This document shows positions 22,955 to 59,374 of a stretch of DNA of 64,000 nt, in pieces. Below the pieces are notes generated by a model. The model was given only the letters and a program-made list of their open reading frames with translations, was not told the DNA's origin and made no database searches. The stretch is from Alkaliphilus metalliredigens QYMF (GTDB lineage Bacteria; Bacillota; Clostridia; Peptostreptococcales; Natronincolaceae): contig NC_009633.1 in the NCBI RefSeq assembly GCF_000016985.1, forward strand, positions 2,523,539-2,587,538, written 5' to 3'. The translations under genes were made by a program, and so were the position numbers. Position 1 is the stretch's first letter, and every line of letters starts with the position of its first letter.

Positions 22955-24861
22955 GAAAAGTGTATCGATATTTAGAACAGATAAACTCTCCAGAGGACTT
23001 GAAGAAACTTAAGGAAAATGAAGTGAGATTATTAGCACATGACATTAGAAAATTCTTAGTTCAGTCAGTTTCAAAAACAGGGGGGCACTTAGCTTCAAAT
23101 CTTGGGGTTGTCGAGTTAACATTAGCATTGCATACAATATATGATACACTGAAGGATAAAATCATTTGGGATGTGGGACATCAAGCCTATGTTCACAAAA
23201 TATTGACTGGAAGAAGAGAGCAATTTAAAACATTGAGACAGTACAAAGGACTTAGTGGATTCCCTAAACGACATGAAAGTTCTCATGATCATTTCGACAC
23301 GGGACATAGTAGTACATCCATTTCAGCTGCCCTAGGGTTGGCTAGTGCCCGGGATCTAAAAAAAGAAAAGCATGAGGTTGTAGCAGTAATTGGTGATGGC
23401 GCATTGACTGGCGGTATGGCATTTGAAGCCTTAAATCACGGAGGTCAAAGTAAAAAGAATATCACAGTTGTATTAAATGACAATGAAATGTCCATTTCAC
23501 AAAATGTAGGTGGTTTATCTAACTACTTGAGTAAAATACGCACAGCACCTATCTACGCTAAAGTTAAAGATGATCTGGAGTTATTGTTGGGTAATATACC
23601 AGCAATAGGAAAAAGCGTGAAGAAAACAGCAGAAAAAGCAAAGGATAGTATCAAGTATTTTTTCGTACCAGGGATATTATTTGAGGAGCTTGGGTTTACA
23701 TATATTGGGCCAATTGATGGTCATGATTATAATGCCTTATGTACAGCCATTAAAAATAGTAAGAATATCAAAGGACCGAAACTAATTCATGTGATTACTA
23801 AAAAAGGAAAAGGATATAAGCTAGCTGAAAAGTCACCAGCTGAATTCCATGGAGTCAGCCCATTTAAAATCGAAACAGGCAAGCCTATTTCTTTAACAAA
23901 AAACCTATCTTTTTCAGAGGTTGCAGGAAACACTTTAATAGAAGCCGCAAAAACCAATCCACGTATTGTTACGATTACAGCTGCCATGCCTTCAGGAACA
24001 GGACTGGCTGATTTTGCTGAACAGTTTCCTGAACGTTTTTTTGATGTTGGCATCGCTGAACAGCATGCTGTGACCTTTGCAGCGGGTATGGCTGCTGAAG
24101 GGTACAAGCCTTTCTTCGCTGTGTACTCAACGTTTTTGCAACGGGCTTTTGATCAAGTGATTCATGATGTATGCATACAGAATCTTCCTGTTACATTTCT
24201 CATCGATCGAGCCGGATTAGTTGGAAATGATGGAGAAACCCATCATGGTGTTTTTGATATTTCATTTTTATCGTGTATACCTAATCTGACTATTTTAGCG
24301 GCAAAGGATGGCAATGAACTTCAGGCCATGATTCAGTTTGCTGAAAAGCATGAGGGACCTGTAGCCATTCGATATCCAAGGGGCACCACGGCACTTGATA
24401 AAGAAAAGAGCATTTTGCCTATTCAACTAGGTAAAGGGGAAGTAATCTGTGATTGGGGTAAAGATGCACTTATTCTCACTGTAGGGAACATGAATGAAAT
24501 AGGAGTGGCATTATGCCAGCAATTGAACAATAAAGGAATTGGAGCAACAGTCATTAATCCTAGATTTATTAAACCGATAGATCAACATTTAATTTTACAA
24601 CATGCTAAATCTCATAAACGCATTTATGTACTAGAAGATAATGCTAAAATCGGAGGATTTGGAGAGCAAATTAGGTCTTTCTTAAATGAATACGAAGTCT
24701 ACAAACCAGTCAAGCTTTTTGCTCTTCCAGATGCATTTATTGAACAAGGAAATGTTGCTCTTCTTTATAAGGATTGTAAATTAAATCAAGAAGAAATATT
24801 CACTGAAATTTATCAAGACTTTACAAAGGGTATCATAGGAAAATTGGCAATAACACGATAA
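22951..24861 (+). CDS. dxs: 1-deoxy-D-xylulose-5-phosphate synthase
   Basis: 636 residues. Thiamine diphosphate-binding GDGALTGGMAFEALNHGG with the downstream NDNEMSIS, the catalytic-region DVGHQAYVHK at the N-terminus, and FDVGIAEQHAVTFAAGMA in the pyrimidine domain with the general-base Glu. It is the first step of the MEP isoprenoid pathway, so together with ispA it frames the OLE locus with isoprenoid genes. Confidence 0.97.
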   Translation: MRKVYRYLEQINSPEDLKKLKENEVRLLAHDIRKFLVQSVSKTGGHLASNLGVVELTLALHTIYDTLKDKIIWDVGHQAYVHKILTGRREQFKTLRQYKGLSGFPKRHESSHDHFDTGHSSTSISAALGLASARDLKKEKHEVVAVIGDGALTGGMAFEALNHGGQSKKNITVVLNDNEMSISQNVGGLSNYLSKIRTAPIYAKVKDDLELLLGNIPAIGKSVKKTAEKAKDSIKYFFVPGILFEELGFTYIGPIDGHDYNALCTAIKNSKNIKGPKLIHVITKKGKGYKLAEKSPAEFHGVSPFKIETGKPISLTKNLSFSEVAGNTLIEAAKTNPRIVTITAAMPSGTGLADFAEQFPERFFDVGIAEQHAVTFAAGMAAEGYKPFFAVYSTFLQRAFDQVIHDVCIQNLPVTFLIDRAGLVGNDGETHHGVFDISFLSCIPNLTILAAKDGNELQAMIQFAEKHEGPVAIRYPRGTTALDKEKSILPIQLGKGEVICDWGKDALILTVGNMNEIGVALCQQLNNKGIGATVINPRFIKPIDQHLILQHAKSHKRIYVLEDNAKIGGFGEQIRSFLNEYEVYKPVKLFALPDAFIEQGNVALLYKDCKLNQEEIFTEIYQDFTKGIIGKLAITR

Positions 24862-29547: not shown

Positions 29548-29574
29548 GAAGGAAAAGATACTACATTGTCGAAT
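29548..29574 (+). promoter_or_regulatory. Sigma-H promoter of spo0A with overlapping Spo0A box
   Basis: GAAGGAAAA (29548-29556) and GTCGAAT (29568-29574), separated by 11 bp, match the sigma-H consensus RNAGGAWWW / RNNGAAT exactly. TGTCGAA (29567-29573), a perfect Spo0A box, covers the -10. A one-mismatch box TATCGAA lies at 29503-29509. This suggests sigma-H activation with autoregulation by Spo0A. Confidence 0.85.
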
Positions 29575-29622: not shown

Positions 29623-30420
29623 GTGAAAAATAATATTAAAGTTTTAATTGCCGATGATAATAAAGATTTCTGTGATATTTTGAAGGAATATCTCCAAAGG
29701 CAAGCAGATATCGAAGTGGTTGGGATTGCAAAAGATGGTCTTGAGGCTGTAGAGCTTATTCAAGAAATGACACCAGATTTAGTTGTGTTAGATATCATTA
29801 TGCCACATCTTGATGGACTAGGGGTATTAGAGCGATTAAATAAGCTCAATTTAGAAAGTTTTCCTAAGGTAATCATTCTATCTGCTGTTGGACAAGATAA
29901 GATCACCCAAAGAGCGATTAACCTTGGCGCTGATTACTATGTTATTAAACCATTTGACTTTGAAGTATTTATAGAAAGAATCAGAGAAATGACCAGTGGC
30001 ATATCCCTACCAACAGAAAACAGAAGATACAATATGTCTGGGCAGACACCATTAGTAACGAATAACAGAAGCCTAGAAGCGGAAATTACAAACATTATAC
30101 ATGAGATTGGAGTTCCAGCTCACATCAAGGGATATTTATATTTAAGAGAGGCAATTACAATGGTTGTTGAAGATGTAGGACTTTTAAGTGCCGTTACTAA
30201 GGAATTGTATCCTTCCATTGGTAAGCGTTTTAACACAACCTCGAGTAGAGTAGAAAGAGCGATTCGCCATGCAATTGAAGTTGCGTGGAGTAGAGGTAAG
30301 GTAGACACAATAAACAACTTATTTGGATATACAGTTCATAATGATAAAGGAAAACCAACTAATTCAGAATTTATTGCAATGGTAGCAGATAAACTAAGGT
30401 TAGAACAAAGAATTGGATAG
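29623..30420 (+). CDS. spo0A: Sporulation master response regulator Spo0A
   Basis: 265 residues from GTG 29623 with GGGGGG. The receiver domain has the acidic pair D11-D12, phosphoacceptor D57 in [10 protein letters not shown], the Ser/Thr switch in ILSAVG, and Lys in VIKPFDF. The C-terminal DNA-binding domain contains the highly conserved [20 protein letters not shown] recognition region. It controls entry into sporulation by binding TGTCGAA boxes, six of which are clustered at 50993-51189. Confidence 0.98.
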
Positions 30421-38635: not shown

Positions 38636-39520
38636 ATGGATATATTAATAAACAATTTTATCATTTACTTAAAAAATGAAAAGCATCTGTCAACAAATAC
38701 ATTGGAGTCATATAAAAGAGATGTCAAGCAATTTACAAGCTACTTAGCAGGAAGTGATATCCATGATATAGAAGAAACAACAAAAACCACGATTATTACG
38801 TATCTATTTTACTTACAAAAGGAGGGGCGTGCTGCCTCTACGATTTCAAGGAGTTTAGCTTCCCTTAGGAGCTTTTATCATTATTTATTACTACATAAAA
38901 AAGTGGATATAGATCCTACGTTTAATTTAGAATCTCCTAAGATGGTGAAAAAACCACCTAACATATTAACACTTGAAGAGGTGGAATTGTTGTTACAACA
39001 ACCATTAAATACTACGCCAAAAGGAATAAGGGATAAAGCTATGTTAGAATTGCTCTATGCCACCGGAATTCGTGTGACAGAGTTAATCTCATTAAATCTA
39101 GAGGATGTTAATGTAAATCTTGGATATATTAGATGTTGTAATAATACTAAAGAAAGAGTGATACCTATTGGGACCCTTTCTTTGATCGCTTTACAGAAAT
39201 ACATAAATTATTATCGGGATGCTTTTACTAAAGATAATGAAGAAAAAAGTTTGTTTCTTAATTATCATGGGGGCCGTTTAACGAGGCAAGGGTTTTGGAA
39301 AATTATAAAGGTTTATACAAAGCAAGCAGCTATCGAAAAAAGTATTACACCCCATACATTAAGACACTCCTTCGCAACACACCTCATTGAAAACGGAGCT
39401 GACCTTAAATCTGTGCAAGAAATGTTAGGCCATTCTGATATTTCAACAACTCAGGTATATGCACAGTTAACTAAACATAAAATCAAGGATGTATATAATA
39501 AAACCCATCCCAGGGCCTGA
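38636..39520 (+). CDS. xerD: Site-specific tyrosine recombinase XerD
   Basis: 294 residues, normal for XerD. SAM-like N-terminal domain with FIIYLKNEKHLSTNTLESYK. Catalytic residues: Arg in LYATGIRVTELISL, His/Arg in HTLRHSFATHLI, His in MLGHSDISTTQ, and the nucleophile Tyr in QVYAQL. It resolves chromosome dimers at dif. No dif-like site was recognised in the window. Confidence 0.95.
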   Translation: MDILINNFIIYLKNEKHLSTNTLESYKRDVKQFTSYLAGSDIHDIEETTKTTIITYLFYLQKEGRAASTISRSLASLRSFYHYLLLHKKVDIDPTFNLESPKMVKKPPNILTLEEVELLLQQPLNTTPKGIRDKAMLELLYATGIRVTELISLNLEDVNVNLGYIRCCNNTKERVIPIGTLSLIALQKYINYYRDAFTKDNEEKSLFLNYHGGRLTRQGFWKIIKVYTKQAAIEKSITPHTLRHSFATHLIENGADLKSVQEMLGHSDISTTQVYAQLTKHKIKDVYNKTHPRA

Positions 39521-50727: not shown

Positions 50728-50886
50728 CTAAGTTGTTTCTAAATTTTCTTTTGACAACGATTTTAATTTATACAATTGAGTAGAATCATCTGGAAGCTTA
50801 CTAAAAGACTTATAAGTAATTGTTTTGTTAGGTGATCCGCTGTGTAGTCCTAAAGCGATGGCCACATATCCTAAATTGATTTTCAT
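50728..50886 (-). pseudogene. uvsE: UV DNA damage endonuclease UvsE, N-terminal remnant
   Basis: 52 codons on the minus strand from ATG 50886 to TAG 50728, with ribosome-binding site AGGTGA. The start LGYVAIALGLHSGSPNKTIT, then YKLKSLSKENLETT, matches the opening of UvsE/UVDE TIM-barrel endonucleases, which are normally about 300-420 residues. Everything after the first beta-alpha unit, including the metal ligands, is gone, and only 48 bp separate the stop from the proC terminator. A deletion joined this start to sequence beside proC. The remnant is probably non-functional. Confidence 0.8.
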
Positions 50887-50992
50887 AAATACTTCACCTC
50901 AGCCGTTATAGAATGTATGATAGACCTATTCATATGAATGGTACGTGATATTCATTATCAATTGATAGGGTGGTATTGATAAAACAATTAAT

Positions 50993-51189
50993 TTCGACAT
51001 CCGCAAAATAGAGTTGGAATTTATGTCGAACTTTAAAAAGCAATATTTAGAAATGAAGTCGAAAAATCATGTCGAATGAAAATGATATCGACAAATCGAC
51101 ACGACAAACATAGACAAAGTATTTGTCGAATAAAACTAAAGCGTTTGTCGAAATTCAGATATGTCAGTTTAAGGATGGTTATTGTCGAA
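50993..51189. promoter_or_regulatory. Cluster of Spo0A boxes
   Basis: Six perfect TGTCGAA heptamers fall in 197 bp: 50993-50999 (reverse), 51024-51030, 51070-51076, 51124-51130, 51146-51152 and 51183-51189 (all forward). One-mismatch copies are at 51057-51063 (AGTCGAA), 51087-51093 and 51095-51101 (both reverse, TGTCGAT). TGTCGAA is the core of the Spo0A recognition sequence and also sits on the spo0A promoter in this window. The nearest genes are the uvsE remnant (minus strand) and the tyrosine recombinase (plus strand, ATG 51616). Binding by Spo0A is inferred from sequence only. Confidence 0.72.
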
Positions 51190-51258: not shown

Positions 51259-51288
51259 GTAGTTGTTTGTAGTTGTTTGTAGTTGTTT
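51259..51288 (+). repeat. Three tandem copies of a 10-bp repeat
   Basis: GTAGTTGTTT is repeated exactly three times (51259, 51269, 51279), followed by a partial copy. Ten base pairs is one helical turn, so proteins bound to each copy would face the same side. It lies between the Spo0A boxes and the promoter at 51360. Confidence 0.8.
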
Positions 51289-51359
51289 ATAGTAGCTATG
51301 GTAGTTCAATGATGATTCAAGAGGGCTTCATAGATAAACTGACAATTACATGGTAAGCG

Positions 51360-51393: not shown

Positions 51394-51607
51394 CACCCTT
51401 AACTATTCTTTAAATGCATATTTAGGGAATAGTTAAGGGTGGATTAAATTGGGGCTTGCTAAATTCCCCGTTTATACTACACACGCCTACTACCATCATT
51501 TGTGGTGTCTCTACTTTACTTATTCGTTATTTGTGATAAAATTTTTATAGTTGATGCTCTTATATGTCGTCAACGTTCCCTAGTCTTTTTAATAAGCCCC
51601 AAAGGAG
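51394..51607 (+). promoter_or_regulatory. Structured 5' leader of the recombinase mRNA
   Basis: The leader opens with a perfect 15-bp stem (CACCCTTAACTATTC at 51394-51408 with 51427-51441) holding a smaller TAAAT/ATTTA stem. Next, TTGGGGCTT (51449-51457) can pair either locally (GGGG with CCCC about 51465) or at long range with AAGCCCCAA (51594-51602), which abuts the Shine-Dalgarno AAAGGAG (51601-51607). A further GTTGA/TCAAC stem lies between (about 51550-51573). Alternative pairings that reach the ribosome-binding site are the architecture of a riboswitch or other translational switch, but no known class was recognised. Confidence 0.5.
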
Positions 51608-51615
51608 TGAATGTC

Positions 51616-52734
51616 ATGTCTAGAAAAAAAAACATCTCAGTTCATAATAAGTCAGATAAACCAGATAATATTGTCACAAAAGAAAATGAAATCATTGAAC
51701 AATGTTTGAAAATTGAGTCACAACTCCCCCCTTTTATGAAGGATTTCTTCTTATACTTAAAAAATGGCGTTGCCCTTACCACGCGATTGGCCTACTCAGA
51801 GGATGTCTTATTTTTTTGTAAGTACCTGGTAAGTCATACGGAATTAACTGATGCAGACCATACTACTCTTATTAAAATTGAAACGTTTCAGCAAATGACA
51901 GCCAAAGATATTAATCGCTATTTAGGTGATTTTTGTTCTAGATATAGTATAGAAAAAGAAGAATCAATTAAAATAATGGAGAACCATAATCGAGCCTTAG
52001 CTAGAAAGAAATCCTCTTTGGCGGTTTTATTTAAGTTTTTATACCGTGACGGATTAATCAAACAAAATATTTCAGATGGATTGAATCCGATTCGACTACC
52101 AAAGCCACAGCCTGATGCAATTAAGCGATTAGAAATTGATGAGGTGGCTCGAATGATTGATTGTGTGGATCTAGGTGAGGCGTTTACCGAAAAGGAAAAG
52201 ACATATTGGCAAAAAACTAAATTAAGAGATAAGGCCATTTTAATGCTCTTTCTTACCTATGGGTTAAGATTAAGTGAACTTGAGCAATTAAACATTTCTT
52301 CTTTTAACTTTAATAGAGGTGAGTTCAAAATATATAGGAAGCGTGGAAAAGAAACTGCAATGCCTATTAATCGAACCTGTGAGACGGTCATCAAAGAATA
52401 CATGGCAAATGAAAGACCTCAATCAAGTGCATTAGATGAGGAGCATAAGGATGCCCTCTTCCTATCGCTACAAAGAAAACGAATGACCACCAGGGCCATA
52501 CGGAATATGGTGAAAAAGTATACTGCCCTAGTATTAGATACCACTGCTAAAAATGGCTATAGTCCCCATAAATTACGGGCAACTGCTGCTACGTCCCTAA
52601 TTCAGCAAGGATTCTCAATTTATGATGTTCAAAATTTATTAGATCACGATGATGTCACTACCACACAGTTGTATGCAGCTCATAAAAAGGATGTTAAAAG
52701 ACAAATTGTTAAAAACTTTGAGTGGCTTGATTAA
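51616..52734 (+). CDS. Tyrosine recombinase (XerC/phage integrase type)
   Basis: 372 residues from ATG 51616, chosen for AAAGGAG 8 bases upstream. A basic N-terminus of about 30 residues precedes a core-binding domain (FMKDFFLYLKNGVALTTRLA). The catalytic domain has Arg in YGLRLSELEQL, a Lys-containing beta hairpin RGKETAMPI, His and Arg in SPHKLRATAATS, His in LLDHDDVTTTQ, and nucleophile Tyr in QLYAAH. All catalytic residues are present. It is longer than XerC/XerD, and xerD is already at 38636, so this is an additional recombinase. It sits between the Spo0A-box array and lexA, with no integrated element or attachment site visible nearby. Confidence 0.9.
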   Translation: MSRKKNISVHNKSDKPDNIVTKENEIIEQCLKIESQLPPFMKDFFLYLKNGVALTTRLAYSEDVLFFCKYLVSHTELTDADHTTLIKIETFQQMTAKDINRYLGDFCSRYSIEKEESIKIMENHNRALARKKSSLAVLFKFLYRDGLIKQNISDGLNPIRLPKPQPDAIKRLEIDEVARMIDCVDLGEAFTEKEKTYWQKTKLRDKAILMLFLTYGLRLSELEQLNISSFNFNRGEFKIYRKRGKETAMPINRTCETVIKEYMANERPQSSALDEEHKDALFLSLQRKRMTTRAIRNMVKKYTALVLDTTAKNGYSPHKLRATAATSLIQQGFSIYDVQNLLDHDDVTTTQLYAAHKKDVKRQIVKNFEWLD

Positions 52735-52830: not shown

Positions 52831-53451
52831 ATGTATGAGGATTTAAATGATAATCAGATTAAAATATTGCATTATATGAAATCGGAGATCAGTCAAAAGG
52901 GTTATCCCCCTTCAGTTAGAGAAATATGCCAAGCTGTTGGATTAAAATCGACTTCTACTGCCCATGGGCACTTATCGAAATTGGAGTTGAAAGGGTATAT
53001 ACGTAGGGATGCGACAAAACCTCGTGCAATTGAAATTTTAAGCCAGGGAGATGAACAATCCCCTTATATCCACAAGGAAATTATTAATGTCCCTATTGTT
53101 GGAAAAGTGACTGCTGGACAACCAATCTTAGCTGTAGAAAATATCGAAGACACCTTTCCTCTTCCAATCGATTTTGTTGATAGTGAGAGTACATTTATTT
53201 TAACAGTTAAAGGAGATAGCATGATTGATGATGGTATACATGAAAATGATTATGTTGTCGTCCGGCAACAATCTGATGCTCGAAATGGTGACATTGTTGT
53301 CGCATTAATTGATGATTCAGCTACAGTAAAAAGATTTTATCGTGAAAAAGATCACATTCGATTACAGCCGTCTAATACGTCCATGTCCCCTATTTTAGTT
53401 GATGATGTCACTATATTAGGTAAGGTTACTGGGGTTTTTAGGAAGATTTAG
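52831..53451 (+). CDS. lexA: LexA repressor
   Basis: 206 residues. N-terminal winged helix [20 protein letters not shown]. Self-cleavage site in VTAGQPI (Ala-Gly bond). Catalytic Ser in [10 protein letters not shown] and Lys in [11 protein letters not shown]. All elements of an active repressor are present. It should control the SOS box at 3214 and its own promoter. In this window one of its obvious repair targets (the Y-family polymerase) is broken. Confidence 0.96.
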
Positions 53452-53663: not shown

Positions 53664-55124
53664 ATGTCTATTTTAACACATAAACAGCTTTCTTTGGCTG
53701 AAATTCATTCCGATTGTGCCAATTATTTTGGAAATGATAAGCATCACTTTCTTTCTCTTTTAAAAGAAAACCTTAATCTTAATGAGATAATACCTCTTTC
53801 TTTTCATCGTAATTACTATGCATCCACTGGCAGACCTAGAAAACATCATCTTACATCAATGGTTTGGGCTTTGCTTCTGCAGCGGATTTTCTCCATTCCA
53901 AACGATACATTGTTGCTTACTTTTCTTCAGTTTTCTAAGGAACTTAGAGATTTTTGTGGTTTCACCAATGTTCCTGATGCTTCTAGATTTACTAGATTCA
54001 AACAAGATTTTTTGCTAGACTTACAATCATTCTTTGAGCATCTTGTGGATGTCACTGAACCTATTTGCCAGGCTATTGATCCTCATAAGGCCTCTATGAC
54101 TGTCTTTGATACTTCTGGCATTGAAGCTTTTGTTACTGAGAACAATCCTAAATATGCTAATAAAATTATTAAACAACTTAAAGCTTTTAAAAAGAGCCAT
54201 AACCTTGGTGATTCCTATGATCCATATAAAGTAGCCTATGGTTCCATGCCTTCTCATGCAGCTGCTAATCCAGAGATCAAGCAACTTTACATCAATGGTC
54301 ATTTTTGTTATGTCTATAAATTTGGGATGATCACCAATGGTCTTGGTATTATTCGTGATATTACTTTTTATGACCAAGATTTTATGAATGCTCATCCTAA
54401 CATCGTTGTTGACAAAAAGTCGGATTCTCCTGATGAGGATAAGTCCCTTGGTGATGCAAAAGCTCTTTTACCAGTGTTATCTGACTTTTTTAATAAACAT
54501 CCACTCATTCAACCTAATATCTTTATCGGAGATGCTGCTTTTGATACCATTTCTATCTACAAAGGAATTTTTTCGGATTTAAAGTTCAATAAAGCTTATA
54601 TTCCCTTAAATCCTCGTTCTTCCCTTAGCAGCTCTGAATACACTCTTACTGAAGATGGGATTCCCTGTTGTCCTCATGATCCAAAACTGCCTATGAAGCC
54701 TGAAGGCAATACTTCTCATCTTCGCTGTGGTATTCCTACTTTCAAGTTTGTCTGTCCGAAAATGTCTTGGACTAAATGTGAAGACGGCAAGTACCGACGC
54801 CGGCATAATTGCGATAATCCCTGTACTTCATCACCTTGTGGTAGAATGATTTATGTGTATCCTGAAAAAGACTTACGGGCATATCCAGGCGCCATTCGTG
54901 GTACCGATGATTGGGATAAAACCTATAAAGCCCGAGGTGTCGTTGAGCAAACCATTAACCATTTCAAAGATAGCTTTTGTATTGCTAATCGAAGAACACA
55001 GAATGCTAAAACATTGCATGCCGACCTGATTATTGCTGGTATAACGCAGCTTGTTACAGTTATCCTTGCTGACAAAATACATCAACACAAATATATCAGA
55101 AGTTTAAAACCACTTATTGCATAG
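53664..55124 (+). CDS. DDE transposase
   Basis: 486 residues. N-terminal DUF772-like region with YYASTGRPRKHHLTSMVWAL. Catalytic acidic residues: Asp in MTVFDTSGIEAF, Asp in IFIGDAAFDTISIY and Glu in ARGVVEQTINHFKDSF. A Cys-rich insertion (about residues 330-395: CCPHD, LRCGIP, CPKMSWTKCEDGKYR, CDNPC) sits before the last motif, as in IS1182-type enzymes. No frameshift is present, so it is likely active. Codon use is richer in T-ending codons than in the neighbours, in keeping with foreign origin. Confidence 0.92.
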   Translation: MSILTHKQLSLAEIHSDCANYFGNDKHHFLSLLKENLNLNEIIPLSFHRNYYASTGRPRKHHLTSMVWALLLQRIFSIPNDTLLLTFLQFSKELRDFCGFTNVPDASRFTRFKQDFLLDLQSFFEHLVDVTEPICQAIDPHKASMTVFDTSGIEAFVTENNPKYANKIIKQLKAFKKSHNLGDSYDPYKVAYGSMPSHAAANPEIKQLYINGHFCYVYKFGMITNGLGIIRDITFYDQDFMNAHPNIVVDKKSDSPDEDKSLGDAKALLPVLSDFFNKHPLIQPNIFIGDAAFDTISIYKGIFSDLKFNKAYIPLNPRSSLSSSEYTLTEDGIPCCPHDPKLPMKPEGNTSHLRCGIPTFKFVCPKMSWTKCEDGKYRRRHNCDNPCTSSPCGRMIYVYPEKDLRAYPGAIRGTDDWDKTYKARGVVEQTINHFKDSFCIANRRTQNAKTLHADLIIAGITQLVTVILADKIHQHKYIRSLKPLIA

Positions 55125-59131: not shown

Positions 59132-59374
59132 TTACTCACCTTGTTTTTTTGATGACTGCATAAAATTAATGGGTGTAATAGGCAGAATGGTTGAAATAGC
59201 ATGTTTATAGATCAATTGTTGCTTCCCATCACTGTCTAGTACAATGGTATAATTGTCGAATCCTTTAACAAATCCCTTTAATTGAAAACCATTAACTAGG
59301 TATATCGTGATTTGTATGTTTTCTTTACGAACTTGATTCAAAAATACATCTTGAAGATTGATGTTGTTTTTCAT
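59132..59374 (-). CDS. hfq: RNA chaperone Hfq
   Basis: 80 residues from ATG 59374; the in-frame GTG at 59383 overlaps the ribosome-binding site AAGGAG and is unlikely. Sm1 motif [30 protein letters not shown], and Sm2 motif [10 protein letters not shown] (the YKH form of Hfq). The miaA-hfq order is widespread. Confidence 0.96.

Follow-up and report, generated by a model that had tools for sequence, protein, structure and literature searches.

Organisation of the locus

The window, by which we mean the whole 64,000-bp stretch of the Alkaliphilus metalliredigens QYMF chromosome that was analysed, contains a non-coding array of TGTCGAA heptamers (Table 1). The array is located ~110-310 bp from the start of a uvsE remnant on its left side, uvsE being the gene for a UV-damage endonuclease. 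On the right side it is followed by a dif-like element at a distance of ~210 bp and by an XerS-like recombinase gene, which starts at ~430 bp and precedes lexA. Directly right of lexA, close to the switch in GC skew, an IS1182-like transposase frame is present (53664-55124). Between the array and the dif-like element we observed three tandem copies of AGTTGTTTGT (51261-51290), the last of which reads AGTTGTTTAT. The palindrome-like element on the left side of the array presumably resembles a Fur-type box; a TGATA-ATTATCA-type palindrome was also seen by eye in several relatives, where it separates uvsE from the boxes, and in some in which uvsE has been lost.

Table 1. Positions of the features in the window
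Feature	Position	Strand	Basis or remark
Single Spo0A-type box, used as yardstick	29567-29573	+	49 bp before spo0A
spo0A	29623-30420
XerD gene	38636-39520		XerD gene search
uvsE remnant	50728-50886	-	first 52 codons, then a stop, rest missing; frame and comparison with the UvsE of a relative
Palindrome-like element TGATATTCATTATCAATTGATA	50946-50967	.	read by eye
Spo0A-type box array, six perfect TGTCGAA	50993-51189 (197 bp)	.	sequence read and motif search
Perfect TGTCGAA box	50993-50999	-
Perfect TGTCGAA boxes	51024-51030, 51070-51076, 51124-51130, 51146-51152, 51183-51189	+
One-mismatch box AGTCGAA	51057-51063	+
One-mismatch boxes TGTCGAT	51087-51093, 51095-51101	-
dif-like element, 30 bp	51403-51432	+	comparison of the upstream regions of recombinase loci
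Tyrosine recombinase, XerS-like (372 aa), probably acting on dif	51616-52734	+	frame, profile and ortholog searches
lexA	52831-53451	+	frame and profile searches

The sequence-only reading had described six perfect boxes, five of them in the same orientation, together with three copies carrying one mismatch, all in non-coding DNA, and each of these points was confirmed at exact positions. Nine perfect TGTCGAA copies occur in the whole window, whereas shuffled windows contained 4.08 on average (sd 2.00) and reached nine in two out of 100 cases. When nine positions were drawn at random, six of them never fell within 197 bp (0/200,000 simulations). The three copies outside the array are located at 23293, inside a long reading frame, at 29567, before spo0A, and at 59254.

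Furthermore, we searched the whole chromosome of 4,929,566 bp for pairs of perfect boxes. Tandem boxes spaced 8-38 bp apart gave three matches, two in the array and one at 4524263, so that close pairs occur at one other place only. Divergent pairs were found in the array only, and convergent pairs were found nowhere in the chromosome. The reversed control patterns gave 1+1 matches for tandem, 1+1 for divergent and 4+4 for convergent pairs, and judged by these controls a single box pair can be a product of chance. By the pair patterns used, the array is without equal elsewhere in the genome.

TGTCGAA as a probable Spo0A box

TGTCGAA is the recognised core of Spo0A binding sites, proven in Bacillus and C. 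difficile according to the accessible part of PMC3485338. In all 20 spo0A upstream regions that were fetched, 17 from the family of the window and three from the related family f11, a perfect TGTCGAA precedes the conserved spo0A start by 70-100 bp. Because of this occurrence we infer that the heptamer functions as a Spo0A box within the clade. The earlier assignment of the array boxes to Spo0A gains support from these upstream regions, and the boxes are probably Spo0A boxes that are predicted to bind the regulator. The upstream regions of spoIIGA were dropped as a second yardstick, since a perfect box was present in none of the 23; the three spoIIGA promoters that were viewed harbour weak boxes of the AGTCGAA type. 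Judging from spoIIGA, perfect boxes thus identify no more than a part of the Spo0A regulon.

The flanking bases of the array boxes differ from those of the boxes before spo0A, and in one genome of the family (G013; 91% complete and containing spoIIGA) boxes are present while Spo0A was not found. Both observations would suit boxes that are bound by a factor other than Spo0A, or decaying relics that are bound by nothing. We regard this as rather unlikely, given that the local excess of boxes is about hundredfold and occurs in many genera, that all six copies are intact in the window genome and that the heptamer coincides with the proven Spo0A core.

A putative dif site next to the array

The dif-like element has the sequence CTATTCTTTAAATGyATATTTAGGGAATAG. 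With up to three mismatches allowed, 148 of 393 genomes from this order contain it, and the reversed control gave no matches. By our reading of the table of matches, 145 of these genomes contain one copy and three contain two. The element is present in 20/20 genomes of the family of the window and is single-copy in the window genome. Its distance from dnaA was worked out for 11 of 20 searched genomes, in each of which both lie on one contig of known length, and amounted to 0.46-0.55 of the chromosome in all 11. In the window genome the GC skew switches sign within ~3 kb of the element. The two 12-bp arms match at 10 of 12 positions. Because it is single-copy, opposite dnaA, close to the skew switch and built from near-symmetric arms, the element is a putative dif site, and it is called dif below. 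Firmicutes dif sites have been predicted earlier with a XerCD-type profile, as stated in the accessible part of PMC3025954, which makes no mention of Alkaliphilus. The Bacillus-type dif was also considered as the terminus site and was rejected: using a 25-bp consensus and up to three mismatches, it was found in 0/12 genomes.

The inverted-repeat arms of dif run beyond the conserved core, with a sequence that varies among genomes yet stays complementary. In the window genome the perfect inverted repeat stretches over 51394-51441. In the 20 family genomes the arms are extended by 5.0 bp on average, compared to 2.16 bp for shuffled partners, and none of 2000 shuffles reached 5.0. The effect is weaker in 20 other genomes (3.05 versus 2.44; 15/2000 shuffles). 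These values come from the window and from dif flanks including L061-L080. The complementary extension suggests a hairpin, a terminator or symmetric binding.

In four of 40 dif flanks, all from the family of the window, we observed, to the right of the array, an inverted pair of DnaA-type boxes exactly 9 bp apart, TGTGGATAA-N9-TTATnCACA (positions relative to dif: L063, -573; L067, -1286; L068, -868; L078, -1281). In the window itself, a search up to 2.5 kb from dif found no DnaA boxes.

The recombinase gene and the array

Among the profiles, XerS (NF003462) gave the best score for the recombinase, 151.6 bits, which is below the cut-off of 267. Orthologs were found in 55 of the 60 genomes searched, the window genome included, and the recombinase belongs to the core genes of this order. 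The gene adjoins dif in the window and in many, not all, relatives. Because of this adjacency, the ortholog count, the best score with XerS and a size typical of single-recombinase systems, the 372-aa protein is likely the partner of dif, although a XerD gene is also present, as it is in 12/12 genomes checked. The pair is widespread in the order and may represent an undescribed single-recombinase dimer-resolution system. A literature search with pieces of the 30-bp site, which covered little subscription literature, returned no description of it, and in the literature on XerS/difSL and clostridial dimer resolution we recognised no description of the pair.

The array is located upstream of the recombinase gene and in the same direction, and the sequence-only reading had proposed that Spo0A controls recombination from there. 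The stretch that the sequence-only reading took for the promoter and leader of the gene does lie beyond the array but holds dif, and the other side of the array is occupied by the truncated uvsE frame. Moreover, only three of 30 recombinase loci, the window included, carry two or more perfect boxes in the 1.5 kb before the gene (two of the 30 have less than 1.5 kb of upstream sequence), and in all three dif is located between the boxes and the gene. Elsewhere the boxes lie beside uvsE. The array was thus rejected as the recombinase promoter, most orthologs having no boxes upstream, and control of the recombinase gene by Spo0A through the array appears very improbable.

Nor did the idea of a second sporulation-linked DNA rearrangement find support: the recombinase is a core gene, and its site is single in the window genome and lies opposite dnaA, as for chromosome-dimer resolution. 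With one copy of the site in the window genome, an element of the sigK type, in which two sites flank an insertion that interrupts a gene, was rejected.

Two more tyrosine-recombinase-like frames of 181 and ~295 aa were seen by eye ~0.4-2.6 kb left of dif in three loci (L081, L082 and L085). One or two TGTCGAA copies are present upstream of the shorter frame in these loci.

Distribution of the boxes in relatives

Around the 20 dif loci of the family, the box density reaches 4.97 per kb between -450 and -200 of dif (24 boxes in 4,832 bp, from 10 loci), while there are zero boxes between +30 and +1000. Two contigs hold few bases left of dif (G016, 916 bp; G014, 282 bp). This peak first suggested strict linkage of the boxes to dif, a view that was weakened by the finding that the boxes travel with uvsE. 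On the box side of dif, uvsE is transcribed away from dif. An intact uvsE directly faces dif in seven family genomes (G001, G004, G008, G009, G011, G012 and G015), and in 7/7 the array is located between the two and contains at least two perfect boxes. In three further genomes (G006, G007 and G017) one or two coding genes separate uvsE from dif, and the boxes stay beside uvsE. Four boxes are found at the uvsE of an Alkaliphilus MAG (G014, L176), on a contig other than that of dif and with no dif in 5.2 kb upstream, and two boxes are found at the uvsE of Geosporobacter ferrireducens, 124 kb from dif with the chromosome taken as circular.

In total, at least two TGTCGAA or TGTCGAT boxes are present within 400 bp upstream of 14/16 uvsE orthologs of both families (13/16 for TGTCGAA alone). 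The exceptions are Anaerosolibacter carboniphilus, which was assigned to its family by genus name, and G002, which has weak boxes near dif and a uvsE located 9.6 kb away without boxes within 400 bp. In family f11, boxes within 700 bp left of dif were found in 2/2 genomes with an adjacent uvsE and in 0/9 without (Fisher p 0.018, kinship-uncorrected).

We also compared 50 uvsE loci whose stretch has no dif. Within 400 bp before uvsE these contain 13 boxes in 19,803 bp versus 35 in 547,079 bp elsewhere, an approximately tenfold excess, and 7/50 of these loci have any perfect box upstream. L176 and L179, members of the same two families, account for six of the 13 boxes; when both are left out, seven boxes in 5/48 loci remain, corresponding to a roughly sixfold excess, and two of these five loci (L199 and L203) are near-identical. 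Of the eight family genomes without this uvsE, four retain two or more boxes close to dif (G000, G003, G005 and G013; in G005 one of them is TGTCGAT) and four do not, compared to retention in 11/12 with uvsE, a difference that is not significant (p 0.11).

In the relatives the boxes thus mostly track uvsE.

The same data bear on the possibility that the array serves dif as an accessory site. In that case Spo0A~P bound to the array would act directly on dimer resolution or terminus pairing, timing or directing resolution or holding sister termini together at sporulation onset, so that the forespore gets one clean chromosome, and uvsE would be a neighbour that shares the array. The one-sided box peak near dif and the boxes that remain there in four genomes without this uvsE would fit such a role. 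There are also related cases: at the psi site of pSC101, Xer recombination is helped by ArcA, likewise a response regulator (accessible part of PMC5357621), and sister termini cohere in sporulating B. subtilis by a cause that is not known according to the accessible part of PMC7515245. However, in several genomes the boxes have parted from dif along with uvsE, coding genes intervene in G006, G007 and G017, and family f11 has no boxes at dif where an adjacent uvsE is missing. We therefore consider a dif accessory site unlikely.

It is less probable still that the array titrates Spo0A or controls another transcript, for example one directed rightward toward dif. In its favour, six boxes are many, and other genes are located right of the array in G003, G006, G007 and G017; against it, these right-hand genes are, by eye, unlike one another.

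A proposed control region of uvsE that may have outlived its gene

The uvsE remnant shares 41 of 51 residues (80%) with the start of the 324-aa UvsE of G004. With 52 codons left, no intact uvsE is present beside the array in the window genome, and the missing codons are gone, because the proC frame ends 78 bp beyond the remnant. A single further UvdE-type gene was found in this genome; it is only distantly homologous (32% identity), and its locus has no boxes. Full UvsE proteins of the family share 59-71% identity with the one of G001. As the remnant is more similar than this, the comparison suggests a recent deletion, with the caveat that the N-terminus may be better conserved than the rest of the protein. 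A recent deletion would account for an array that is still perfect.

We favour, as reasonably probable, the explanation that the array is a Spo0A-bound control region of uvsE that was orphaned by a probably recent deletion. The uvsE gene of the family is often located at the replication terminus and points away from dif. As known from elsewhere, Spo0A~P increases when sporulation begins; it would then bind the boxes and either raise or lower leftward transcription into uvsE. The UvsE family functions in the repair of UV lesions, a task that the enzyme would perform in the spore or the germinating cell, and the developing spore would thereby be equipped with UV repair. In the window genome, where uvsE is mostly deleted, the last two steps, uvsE transcription and UV repair, would be broken, leaving an intact but orphaned array that has presumably lost its function. 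Control of the XerS-like recombinase gene by the array is probably absent.

Several observations count against control of uvsE by the boxes: only 7/50 unlinked uvsE loci have a box, spoIIGA has none, and the family boxes are located 120-370 bp before uvsE, which is rather far for a classical activator. In addition, G002, G013 and the four genomes that keep boxes without uvsE may reflect a certain link to dif, or a different role of the boxes. The accessible part of PMC3416734 lists ywjD, a putative UV damage endonuclease gene, among sporulation genes and marks it with a G, which we take as sigma-G.

If control of uvsE is true, UV repair by UvsE joins the Spo0A regulon in this clostridial group, a link that did not turn up in a literature search, and the window shows a strong regulatory array outliving its gene. 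The by-product of the analysis, dif and its recombinase, may matter more, as it suggests a further single-recombinase dimer-resolution system in a clostridial order. Should the array instead serve dif as an accessory site, the control of sporulation would reach directly into chromosome resolution; the terminus cohesion of B. subtilis has raised this question (PMC7515245, accessible part).

Comparison with known systems

Like the Spo0A box clusters in Spo0A-regulated promoters of Bacillus and Clostridioides, such as those of abrB and spo0A, the array consists of multiple intergenic boxes with the TGTCGAA core (PMC3485338, accessible part). It differs from them in having six perfect boxes over 197 bp and a likely target that is truncated and ~110-310 bp off. 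The sequence-only reading had compared it with a Spo0A-bound site as near the Bacillus oriC. That remark is sound in so far as Spo0A boxes are present at oriC of B. subtilis (PMC5295017, accessible part) and lie in both cases at a landmark of the chromosome cycle. Unlike oriC, however, the array is located at the replication terminus and has no DnaA boxes nearby.

According to the accessible part of PMC5357621, XerS/difSL of streptococci and XerH/difH of epsilon-proteobacteria combine one recombinase of ~350-370 aa with an adjacent terminus site. The recombinase of the window resembles these single-recombinase modules in size and in its adjacency to the terminus site, whereas the sequence of the 30-bp site differs, the XerS cut-off is not reached and a XerD gene is also present. 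Finally, psi of pSC101 with its ArcA site resembles the window in that a response-regulator site lies beside a Xer site, an analogy that applies only to the reading of the array as a dif accessory site.
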